Below the pieces are notes generated by a model. That model did not search any database. It saw only the letters and a list, made by a program, of their open reading frames with translations, and was not told the origin of the DNA. Position numbers and translations under genes: made by a program. From Lysobacter sp. BMK333-48F3 (GTDB lineage Bacteria; Pseudomonadota; Gammaproteobacteria; Xanthomonadales; Xanthomonadaceae), in assembly GCF_019733395.1 (NCBI RefSeq), contig NZ_JAIHOO010000001.1, positions 2,241,001 to 2,305,000 on the forward strand: DNA of 64,000 nucleotides. Reading direction: 5' to 3'. Of the stretch, positions 32,269 to 35,237 are shown one piece after another (the stretch's first letter is position 1; each line of letters opens with the position of its first letter).

Positions 32269-33141
32269 TCAGTGTTCCTTGTGCAGTGCGCCGGTACGGA
32301 TCGGTCCGCGGTACTTGCCCGCGCGACGCGGGCGGCGTGGAGCGGGCGCGTCGTAGGCGTCCGGCAGGTCGTCGTTGTTCAATCCGTGTTCGAGCAACTC
32401 CGCCCGTCCCAGCTGTCGTTTGCGCTGCGCGTACAGGTCGGCGCGACCGTACAGGCTTTCGCGCCGTCCCTTGCACTCGCTCGCCTGTCGGCCGAGCACC
32501 GCGTCGTAGGCGAACGCCCGCACGGTGGCGTGCGGGCCGTGCCGGGGCTGGCGCTGCCACGCCGGCGGCACGGGCGCCAGTTCGATCGCATACCAGACGC
32601 CATCGATACGGCGCAGTTGGGCGGTCGGCCCGAGCTTGCGCACGTCCGGCTCCAGGCCGCGTTGGCGCAGCTGGACCGCCCGGGCATGAGCCCGCTTGCG
32701 TTCGATCTGTGCGCGCAGCGCCGCTTCGTTGCGCATCAGGCAACCGCTGTCCGGGCACACGTACAGATCGTGCCAGGATTCGGCCAAGGCCGTCAGGCCG
32801 CCGTAGCGGCGCATCGCCTGCAGTTCGCCGTCGATGCGCTGCACGCGCATCGCGACGAAATCGTCGATGTGCTGGTGGATGTGCTGTTGCACGGTGTTGC
32901 GCCGGTCGACGCGCTGGCACAGCTCCGAATAGACGAAGTCCCAGCGTCGCCCGACCTGCCGGTCGAGGTAGCGTTTGAGCGGATTGAGGTTTTCGTTGAG
33001 CCACTTGCGATTGCTGTGGCGGTGTTTCATGCCCTCTTGACGGGGATGATCCTCGGGATCGCGCGGCGGGCGCGTGCGGGCCTGGGGGCCGCCGCCGCGA
33101 CGCGGTCGTTCGACGATCACTTTGTACATGTCGTTGCGCAT
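32269..33141 (-). CDS. Unknown 290-aa protein inserted between slipin and RtcB
   Basis: The start is ATG 33141, with an alternative at 33129 (MYKVIVERPRRGGG). The protein is strongly basic and mostly soluble. Residues ~35-100 are rich in aromatic and basic side chains (NENLNPLKRYLDRQVGRRW, then a His-rich QQHIHQHIDDF). A CPDSGC motif near residue 130 could bind metal. Then come helical basic stretches (RAQIERKRAHARAVQLRQRG) and an Arg/Lys-rich tail. It looks like an RNA- or ribosome-associated protein, but I recognise no family. The one-base spacing to rtcB suggests a shared task in RNA repair. Confidence 0.8.
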   Translation of the reverse strand: MRNDMYKVIVERPRRGGGPQARTRPPRDPEDHPRQEGMKHRHSNRKWLNENLNPLKRYLDRQVGRRWDFVYSELCQRVDRRNTVQQHIHQHIDDFVAMRVQRIDGELQAMRRYGGLTALAESWHDLYVCPDSGCLMRNEAALRAQIERKRAHARAVQLRQRGLEPDVRKLGPTAQLRRIDGVWYAIELAPVPPAWQRQPRHGPHATVRAFAYDAVLGRQASECKGRRESLYGRADLYAQRKRQLGRAELLEHGLNNDDLPDAYDAPAPRRPRRAGKYRGPIRTGALHKEH

Positions 33142-34409: not shown

Positions 34410-34776
34410 GATGAGTCTCCTTGTCGTTCCGGTGATCCGATCCGTGGTGAGCTGCCGCAGCGACCGAATCGGTTCGTCGCCGGGCGTGGTGGGCGGCGCG
34501 TTGGCGCGCGCCGCGGAATAAGTGGAAACGCCCCCGACGTCGTCGCTGCGGGGCCGGCGTGCTGCCTGCGGGGCCGGTACCGGCCCGCCGCGGCGACGTT
34601 CCCTGTCGCTGCGGGCGGGCGCCGTACCGCAGACCGCGTCGAGGACGCGGGTCCGGCATCGTCGCCGTTGCGGTGTTCCTTGGCGCGCCCCAGGCCGGCG
34701 GCGCGTTGCGGAACGCCGCTGAGGGCGTTTCCTGGTGCGGAACTTTCGTTCCTGTTTCTAAGCCGTCGTGAAAGGA
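34410..34776 (-). other. Structured leader between the tRNA-like RNAs and slipin
   Basis: This 367-bp non-coding stretch on the minus strand contains a hairpin with arms GGAAC/GTTCC and loop GAAA (34739-34752), an imperfect hairpin at 34710-34732 (GGAACGCC with GGCGTTTCC), and GC-rich self-complementary runs near 34560-34620. The AAGGAG of slipin ends it. No credible small gene is seen. It may be the processed remainder of the transcript after the tRNA-like units. Confidence 0.5.
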
Positions 34777-34849
34777 CGGTGGACAGCGGGAGTCGAACCC
34801 GCGACAACAGCACGGATGCTGCGCTCTAACCGAACTGAGCTATATCCAA
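34777..34849 (-). ncRNA. tRNA-like RNA 1 with a UCCG tetraloop in place of the anticodon loop
   Basis: Read on the minus strand: acceptor TTGGATA, TA, D-stem GCTC/GAGC with loop AGTTCGGTTA, G26, stem CAGCA/TGCTG closed by TCCG (34813-34816), a 5-nt variable region TTGTC, T-stem GCGGG/CCCGC with canonical loop TTCGACT, then TGTCC A CCG. The D- and T-loops keep the bases that form the tRNA elbow, but there is no seven-base anticodon loop; UCCG is a UNCG-type stable tetraloop. Five acceptor pairs are good (GGATA/TGTCC, one G-U); pair 1-72 is a mismatch. It lies 1 nt after tRNA-like RNA 2 and upstream of slipin-RtcB. Confidence 0.85.
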
Positions 34850-34850
34850 G

Positions 34851-34922
34851 TGGAGACGAGCCGGACTCGAACCGGCGACCTGCGACTCGCGTCGCCGCTC
34901 TAACCTACTGAGCTATCGTCAC
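34851..34922 (-). ncRNA. tRNA-like RNA 2 with a GCGA tetraloop in place of the anticodon loop, 3' CCA encoded
   Basis: Read on the minus strand: acceptor GTGACGA, TA, D-stem GCTC/GAGC with loop AGTAGGTTA, G26, stem GCGAC/GTCGC closed by GCGA (34887-34890), variable region AGGTC, T-stem GCCGG/CCGGC with loop TTCGAGT, then TCGTC T CCA. GCGA is a GNRA tetraloop. Everything except the anticodon loop follows tRNA rules. The acceptor has five perfect pairs (GACGA/TCGTC); in a seven-pair model position 2-71 is U-U. The two RNAs share architecture but differ in all stems except the D-stem, so they are not a recent duplication. Confidence 0.88.
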
Positions 34923-35237
34923 TGAGAAACATCCCGACGCGGACTTCGGCATACGCCACGGCACAGCCGCGCGCACCGGACGGGAACGAACCCGTACCGC
35001 TGTAGTCCTGGCCTTGCGGATGCTTCGTATTGCCGCCTGTCGCCAAGCGGCAATGCGTTCGGGCGCAAGCGCCCCTGTTCTGCGATTCCCTACGCGCGGC
35101 CCGTGCCGAAGCACCGGAGCACGGCGCTGATGCGCCTCATTGGCCTGTCCCCTTTCCTCTCGGATGCTTCGGGGCGTCTGGAATGGCGGAAATCCTGCCG
35201 TTTCCGGCGGTTCTCGAGTGTTTCCCTTTGCGAGCGC
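34923..35237 (-). other. Hairpin-rich leader upstream of the tRNA-like pair
   Basis: On the minus strand this non-coding DNA has several hairpins: ATTGCCGC/GCGGCAAT near 35034-35059, CCGTGC/GCACGG around 35101-35124 with an inner CCG/CGG, GGCGC/GCGCC near 35124-35140, and GGGTTCGTTCCC near 34981-34995. It probably includes the promoter and leader of the tRNA-like/slipin/RtcB transcript, but I cannot point to a firm promoter. No protein gene is supported. Confidence 0.45.

Follow-up and report, generated by a model that had tools for sequence, protein, structure and literature searches.

Bacterial RNA repair is known through its enzymes and a regulator, with few RNA players. RtcR is activated by tRNA fragments (5′ tRNA halves), and YrlA, a tRNA-like RNA, has been proposed to be a competitive inhibitor of an anticodon nuclease (excerpts of PMC7790460). 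An SPFH gene, PaFlo8, lies in the rtc locus of P. aeruginosa (excerpts of PMC13086221), and in Anabaena a stress-induced trn operon of 26 tRNA genes is under TrcR (excerpts of PMC10272220). A tRNA-like RNA beside a slipin gene is not mentioned in those portions of the rtcBA-operon literature that were examined. An RNA of this kind would supply an RNA component to repair operons, and possibly a job to slipin.

Here we describe such a locus in a stretch of 64,000 nt of the Lysobacter sp. BMK333-48F3 genome (the window). Two tRNA-like elements on its minus strand, TL1 and TL2, appear to be modules of a larger predicted structured RNA encoded upstream of genes for slipin and the RNA ligase RtcB (Table 1).

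Table 1. Features of the predicted RNA and of the genes downstream of it, in window coordinates.
Feature	Position	Strand	Evidence or remark
Predicted structured RNA, ~530 nt	35054-34524	-	
Upstream module, hairpin CCGTGC/GCACGG (35124-35119 / 35106-35101)	35101..35171	-	Covariation in most aligned leaders
11-bp hairpin ATTGCCGC...GCGGCAAT, 5′ side	35029..35054	-	10/11 pairs double-changed, 92% of cells paired
5′ domain: closing stem, hairpin CGGG..CCCG, core stem	34925..35027	-	Model R1, 87.7 bits
Core stem GTGCGC-hairpin-GCGTAT-GCC	34976-34951	-	Within the 5′ domain
TL1, first tRNA-like module	34852..34922	-	RF00005, 48.6 bits; GCGA loop capping the anticodon stem; fit and covariation
TL2, second tRNA-like module	34778..34849	-	RF00005, 44.4 bits; loop UCCG in the window
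Hairpin after TL2, ACGTC...GACGG, overlapping the TL2 end	34763..34780	-	5/5 pairs double-changed, 96% paired
Hairpin GGAAC-GAAA-GTTCC, GNRA-capped	34739..34752	-	4/5 pairs double-changed
3′ domain, long-range closing stem GGAAACGCCCU/GGGGCGTTTCC	34524..34732	-	9/11 closing pairs double-changed, 96% paired
Slipin, SPFH/Band 7 protein, 376 aa	33279..34409	-	PF01145, 92.6 bits; stomatin chains in the PDB by sequence
Protein X, 290 aa, between slipin and RtcB	32269..33141	-	In 10/80 related loci
RtcB RNA ligase, 406 aa, one of two RtcB in the genome	31047..32267	-	PF01139, 416.5 bits

The tRNA-like pair and its relatives

The initial annotation had read the minus strand as carrying two tandem tRNA-like elements with tetraloops in place of the anticodon loops, and the pair is real: with Infernal, both elements match the Rfam tRNA model RF00005 above its gathering score of 29 bits (Table 1), with four-base loops replacing the anticodon loops. 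A structural fit reproduces the remaining details that had been described, namely the canonical T-loops (TTCGAGT in TL1, TTCGACT in TL2), the GG in both D-loops and the 5-nt variable regions, and resolves the anticodon arms as GCGAC-GCGA-GTCGC in TL1 and CAGCA-TCCG-TGCTG in TL2. The gap between the elements, given earlier as 1 nt, is 2 nt according to Rfam. Among the 48 tRNA matches in the 5.2-Mb genome, TL1 and TL2 are the two with the lowest scores, and ARAGORN, which reads this arm with six bases and an 'anticodon' of two, reports both as 'tRNA-???'. The features of a functional tRNA are thus divided: the elbow of T-loop and D-loop is present and the scores exceed the gathering score, and neither element has a 7-nt loop with U33 and a usable anticodon (both loops are 4 nt) or a 7-bp acceptor with a 3′ CCA. 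Each acceptor stem contains one mismatch close to its open end, and CCA is encoded by neither element, as opposed to all 34 host tRNAs fetched (from 46 others in the genome). Folded alone, the elements are mildly better than shuffled sequences (z of -1.04 and -1.86), so that the proof has to be comparative.

Relatives were collected by searching with the downstream slipin, which gave 80 loci, almost all of them in Lysobacterales and its neighbours. Of the 76 related loci with enough sequence, 71 have two T-loop motifs upstream of slipin and the other five have one (in 4/80 the sequence ends too close to the gene). T-loop pairs spaced 60-80 nt apart occur in 0 of 1902 control windows, which were taken from 79 of the 80 related loci with leaders excluded and with one locus, L069, omitted, which holds a tRNA array.

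For TL1, 63 fits including that of the window were retained (9 of 72, scoring below 45, were dropped). Its anticodon-arm loop most commonly has four bases (35/63), and of these loops, from relatives that are not independent of one another, 15 are of the GNRA type (GCAA in 7, GCGA in 4, GAAA in 3, GTAA in 1) and 20 are not. GNRA loops recur on this first element, and GNRA-capped arms are visible by eye at five loci outside the order (L169, L172, L197, L196, and L139). The TL2 loop, by comparison, has seven bases in 59/72 TL2 and four in just 2/72; the UCCG of the window is not kept even in near relatives (TCAATT in L001, TTCA in L005) and is a lineage-specific, local state. The earlier proposal that both tetraloops had been selected for is therefore not supported for TL2.

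The seven-base loops of TL2 carry T33 in 40/59 and A37 in 49/59, with 27 different middle triplets. Position 34 is A in 10/59, never as ACG, which is the sole A-initial anticodon among the 34 host tRNAs. These scattered triplets and the 4-nt loops in the window agree with the earlier statement that neither element decodes, apparently in either case. The TL2 acceptor is shortened to ~4 bp in most relatives (outer three pairs formed in 9, 7, and 18 of 72, inner four in 71-72 of 72), and in other lineages TL2 yields partial matches to the tRNA model (e.g., 4-67). The anticodon stems are nevertheless kept by compensated changes, with 34 distinct stems in 63 TL1 and 26 in 72 TL2; covariation of these stems in relatives had been named as a check, and it bears out the view that the elements reflect selection and not decay. 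TL1 would accordingly often mimic a tRNA whose anticodon arm is capped, and TL2 mostly one whose loop is open and apparently does not decode. In Arenimonas (L031, 4569-4720) the 5′ domain and slipin are kept while TL1 and most of TL2 are gone, a natural variant useful for asking which module matters.

A predicted ~530-nt RNA and its distribution

The structure surrounding the pair was predicted from an alignment of 68 leaders, comprising 67 of the 80 related loci and the window. Left out were leaders with short upstream sequence (L015, L037, L041, L057), an unsuitable one (L058), near-duplicates (L049, L055, L064, L068, L079), and those with one recognised T-loop (L031, L042, L066; L072, with the same trait, was retained). 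RNAalifold predicts 121 pairs for this alignment, 93 of them with double-sided change, and with ribosum scoring 151 pairs at -329.9 kcal/mol, with 90.9% of cells paired and 118 pairs double-changed by a count that is not tree-aware. Twelve column-shuffled alignments reach 17-28 double-changed pairs and -121 to -144 kcal/mol, and when partners are slid by 1-3 columns pairing falls to 37-45%. The compensatory change that characterizes structured noncoding RNA is therefore present (118/151 versus 17-28 in shuffles).

The first core-stem pair is G-U in 68/68 aligned leaders, and the other core-stem pairs vary between lineages, mostly with compensation. A hairpin followed by a stem with G-U first occurs in 22/27 diverse leaders, compared with 11/405 shuffles and 29/920 other windows, by a post hoc pattern that was tuned on the loci on which it was tested and that itself demands the first G-U pair. 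Downstream of the core, the hairpin after TL2 takes the form ATGAC-CTGTCAC-GTCAT in many relatives, and the closing stem of the 3′ domain reads GGAAACGCCCU/GGGGCGUUUCC in window coordinates. A T-rich stretch follows the 3′ domain in many relatives, with T at +4 to +8 in 49, 49, 25, 44, and 34 of 65 sequences, respectively.

The hairpin at 35029-35054 (ATTGCCG..CGGCAAT) could be an RNA hairpin or, equally, a palindromic operator for some regulator, and the upstream module could belong either to the RNA or to the region that controls it. The loop of the upstream hairpin could pair with GAAGCATC (35170-35163) in a pseudoknot-like manner; across 73 aligned leaders these eight loop-upstream pairs, which were named after inspection, are standard in 42/45 to 64/66 rows (weakest, 45/67) with double-sided changes in 1-15 rows, and hairpin pairs 4-6 are double-changed in 30, 6, and 18 rows. 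Three loci (L070, L074, L076) have a different hairpin at this position. A consensus scan of the window returned no sigma-70 promoter.

To follow the RNA beyond close relatives we used R1, a covariance model of the 5′ domain alone with no tRNA part, of which the Lysobacter genome holds one copy. Within the order, R1 scores at least 45 bits in 18/151 genomes, and the element is therefore patchy. In a 398-genome sample of the phylum, 32 genomes pass an E-value of 0.001 and eight are strong (at least 51.7 bits), two of the eight being in another class of Pseudomonadota, presumably Alphaproteobacteria. Among 289 genomes of that second class one more R1 match has T-loops (G398, 29 bits), as do five more among 120 genomes of one of its families, and 369 genomes of the window's own class add the element in two new families. 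Outside the order, T-loop modules follow R1 matches of at least 29 bits in 10 of 11 cases, and of these ten loci all nine with a long enough contig have slipin downstream, at 38-43% identity. A match of 37 bits in genome G659 (L124), where T-loops and slipin are both missing, proved false, so that R1 alone yields some false matches. Matches of 21-28 bits pass an E-value of 0.001 and were treated as noise; the subset that was fetched is without adjoining T-loops or ARAGORN tRNAs.

Slipin itself is present in 23 of the 398 phylum genomes, including all eight with a strong R1 match, and in the other 15 T-loop elements lie upstream without exception (15/15), ~230-640 nt away, with two or more elements in 14 and one in G379. 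Together these loci hold 30 elements, of which 20 can be fitted to a complete cloverleaf (score at least 45) and 10 are reduced. In plasmid records, tblastn finds slipin in nine, from Burkholderia (4), E. coli (2), Citrobacter, Photobacterium, and one Bacillota record. All five leaders inspected, one per genus, have the core pattern and T-arm modules, and a core-like stem is present in those of Burkholderia, E. coli, and Bacillota. The Photobacterium leader has two complete modules, and those of E. coli, Citrobacter, and Bacillota have reduced ones; TL1 of Burkholderia is reduced to little beyond the acceptor/T arm, as are the modules of E. coli and Bacillota. The RNA is thus fixed beside slipin in two classes of Pseudomonadota, and examples were seen in Burkholderia, E. 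coli, and one Bacillota replicon.

In E. coli the locus is flanked by yjbD and lysC, and 1419 of 5426 complete genomes contain the stretch from slipin through RlaP to zeta over at least 80% of its length, which makes the question testable by ordinary E. coli genetics. At one E. coli locus (L199, 3163-4916) a convergent gene of the zeta-toxin family, which may encode a repair kinase or a toxin, stands beside slipin-RlaP. A phage or prophage origin was considered and rejected: slipin has no match in phages and none confirmed in viral contigs, and the core pattern is absent from viral contigs. Separately, a stretch of a Prescottella equi plasmid in which no gene is listed (NZ_CP121764.1:209211-209287) shares 78% identity with the beginning of TL1 and may be a plain tRNA. 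At L069 (28-3043), which is labelled Verrucomicrobia and has a Lysobacterales-like slipin, ARAGORN makes 25 tRNA calls just upstream of the RNA-slipin locus, one of them on the opposite strand and overlapping another; the array recalls the Anabaena stress tRNA operon.

Gene neighbours and possible roles

Slipin is the constant partner of the RNA, with RtcB or RlaP frequent, and strand and order before slipin are identical in all loci examined; in the window, 114 nt separate the end of the 3′ domain from the slipin start codon. RtcB is downstream in 74 of the 80 loci from the slipin search (74 of 78 evaluable, L048 and L073 being cut off), and within ~1.5 kb downstream in 7/15 of the slipin genomes that lack a strong R1 match. 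By tblastn, RtcB was not found beside the RNA-slipin loci L070, L074-L076, L101, L154, and L156-L161. The initial annotation had located the pair by slipin and RtcB together: slipin holds, RtcB was not found at the loci of several lineages, and a role tied to RtcB alone is rejected, given the occurrence of RNA and slipin at such loci. In E. coli the gene after slipin encodes RlaP (PF10127, 'RNA repair pathway DNA polymerase beta family', 323 bits), and in Citrobacter (L200) a nucleotidyltransferase gene takes its place, with rtcR just upstream. Protein X, of the window, has no match in Pfam, NCBIfam, or PADLOC.

A sigma-54-type motif precedes the first T-loop by 130-195 nt in 9 of 29 loci scanned (background, 47 of 2762 windows of 900 nt, these leaders included), and a tenth variant was seen by eye in Citrobacter. 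In the 80-locus set plus the window, the motif occurs in 1 of 77 leaders, where it lies inside the RNA. These motifs in other lineages are no more than suggestive of transcription of the RNA. The Lysobacter genome has two RtcB loci, one carrying the tRNA-mimic RNA and the other (L201, C1:685000-695000) a divergent RtcR and its own sigma-54 motif. Of the traits of an RtcR operon, the window therefore has the repair enzyme, with RtcB downstream on the same strand, and RtcR and a sigma-54 motif are both at the other RtcB locus.

What would such an RNA do? The predicted fold is conserved (5′ core, one to three tRNA-like modules, 3′ domain); slipin is its constant neighbour, RNA-repair genes are frequent ones, and some lineages add a sigma-54-type motif. 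We consider it possible, with confidence somewhat short of even, that the tRNA-mimic modules of this ~530-nt RNA, which heads slipin(-RtcB/-RlaP) operons, serve as a tRNA surrogate, either decoy or sensor. The RNA would be made upon build-up of tRNA fragments, and its elbow (D-loop/T-loop) and acceptor-T arm would be bound by tRNA-acting nucleases or repair enzymes. Since tRNA elbows are displayed without a usable anticodon, enzymes that recognise tRNAs by the elbow or the top half, be they nucleases, processing enzymes, or repair enzymes, would be drawn to the RNA. One module may have an inert anticodon arm, often GNRA-capped, and the other an arm whose loop stays open and does not decode; broken ends would be mended or tagged by RtcB or RlaP, and slipin oligomers would assemble the complex, perhaps at the membrane.

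A more specific version is doubtful, in which the RNA is widespread in bacteria, damage-induced, and organised by slipin, and its one to three dummy tRNAs lure tRNA-cutting toxins and phage-response nucleases, while RtcB or RlaP repairs the bait. If true, it would amount to an RNA decoy arm of RNA repair, at a locus that roughly one in four complete E. coli genomes carries. Because RtcB was not found beside several RNA-slipin loci, the mimic cannot in general depend on RtcB for its mending, and because the modules are reduced in some lineages and L031 is without TL1, a complete tRNA shape is not always needed. Also counting against the surrogate are the sigma-54 motif, present in only one of 77 leaders, and the position of the genome's own RtcR at another locus. 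The reduced modules of E. coli, Burkholderia, and Bacillota somewhat favour the three alternatives that follow.

It is unlikely that the modules are processing signals, by which RNase P and RNase Z/E, recognising tRNA-like top halves, would detach the leader from the slipin mRNA in the manner of tRNA punctuation. The modules separate the 5′ domain from the mRNA, what reduced modules retain is the acceptor/T-arm half, and the TL1 acceptor has 6-7 bp in 54/63 and continues as ACCAC in 24/63, with NCCA at the TL1 end in L087, L088, and L103. RNase P and RNase Z are not known to need an anticodon stem, however, and this stem is kept and covarying; the TL2 acceptor, moreover, mostly has just 4 bp. 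The flanking 5′ and 3′ domains covary strongly too, which indicates selection on more than a cut site.

An architectural role, with the RNA as a subunit of a slipin particle (an SPFH ring) and the modules as elbows docking on slipin or within the RNA, is likewise improbable. It would account for slipin being the sole constant partner, even where no RtcB was found, and the presence of GNRA caps and T-loops, both classical means of tertiary docking, would suit it; the slipin also resembles, by sequence, stomatin, whose structure is known. Yet no RNA-binding domain is recognised in slipin, and a module number that varies between one lone T-arm and three elements is looser than an architectural core would suggest.

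Decidedly unlikely is a cis-acting leader switch, a tRNA-damage riboregulator in which damage or enzyme binding at the modules would alter the 3′ domain (closing stem and T-rich tail) and thus slipin-RtcB expression. The constant strand and order before slipin, the 114 nt from the 3′ domain to the start codon, and the T-rich tail of many loci are as such a switch would have them, but a simple terminator scan of the window found none on this strand (one terminator-like match, expected by chance, is on the other). The closing stem encloses ~190 nt, which is slow for an attenuator, and the sigma-54-type motif would already give damage control in several lineages. Decaying tRNA genes, whether as pseudogenes, as the scar of an integration, or as what is left of a tRNA array, are scarcely credible, since the shrunken loops, mismatched acceptors, and tRNA calls at L069 that might speak for them are outweighed by strong compensatory change, by the fixed position before slipin across two classes of Pseudomonadota and beyond, and by the distance to host tRNAs (best matches of the window modules to the 34 host tRNAs of 0.74-0.75; mean of best matches among those tRNAs, 0.78).

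The tRNA surrogate thus remains the reading that we tentatively prefer.

Comparison with described systems

At gathering score, Rfam 15 reports solely 'tRNA' on the window element, and 'tRNA' or nothing on 16 diverse loci. No such RNA was found in the literature searched, though a review of RNA-repair systems may mention one; it does not appear in the excerpts consulted of PMC7790460, PMC9650030, PMC10272220, PMC13086221, PMC11090510, PMC11109978, and PMC8632094. The slipin-linked tRNA-mimic RNA is therefore proposed as a new class of predicted structured noncoding RNA, and 'tRNA-???' calls or calls with an A34 anticodon before slipin genes are probably not tRNAs.

With the tRNAs of RF00005 the modules share a cloverleaf, the elbow loops, and a score above gathering; they differ in having no decoding loop, no encoded CCA, a short TL2 acceptor in most relatives, and a longer host RNA. 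The pseudo-tRNA tRNAOther of Bacillus cereus is likewise a tRNA-like RNA that is non-translating, and it has a phenotype, but it flanks a pathogenicity island, and slipin and RNA repair are not named in the excerpts of its description (PMC3399842). The Anabaena trn operon resembles the present loci in that rtcB and a slipin gene rise alongside it in a trcR deletion mutant (excerpts of PMC10272220), and differs as an array of tRNA genes on a megaplasmid, where the loci here have one to three apparently non-decoding mimics within a structured RNA. The rtcBA operons under RtcR and sigma-54 are matched by RtcB or RlaP downstream, by the adjacent rtcR in Citrobacter, and by the sigma-54-type motif at nine loci, whereas several loci here consist of RNA and slipin with no RtcB found alongside.

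The closest parallel is YrlA of the Salmonella rsr-yrlBA-rtcBA operon, which is likewise noncoding, is encoded among RNA-repair genes, and has a tRNA-like domain (excerpts of PMC7790460). TL1 and TL2 have the tRNA-like module with elbow loops that is typical of Y RNAs, yet the Rfam Y-RNA families have no match on the elements (window and 16 diverse loci), and the TROVE/Rsr domain (PF05731) has 0 matches in the Lysobacter genome (among 14 control genomes it matched Deinobacterium only). A Y RNA is ruled out by this lack of a Ro60/Rsr match in the genome. The partner here is slipin, and the RNA is larger, with its one to three tRNA-like modules set between other conserved domains. The YrlA operon is under RtcR control, to which the adjacent rtcR (Citrobacter) or the sigma-54-type motif corresponds at some loci here, and the RNA may thus work somewhat like YrlA without being a Y RNA.
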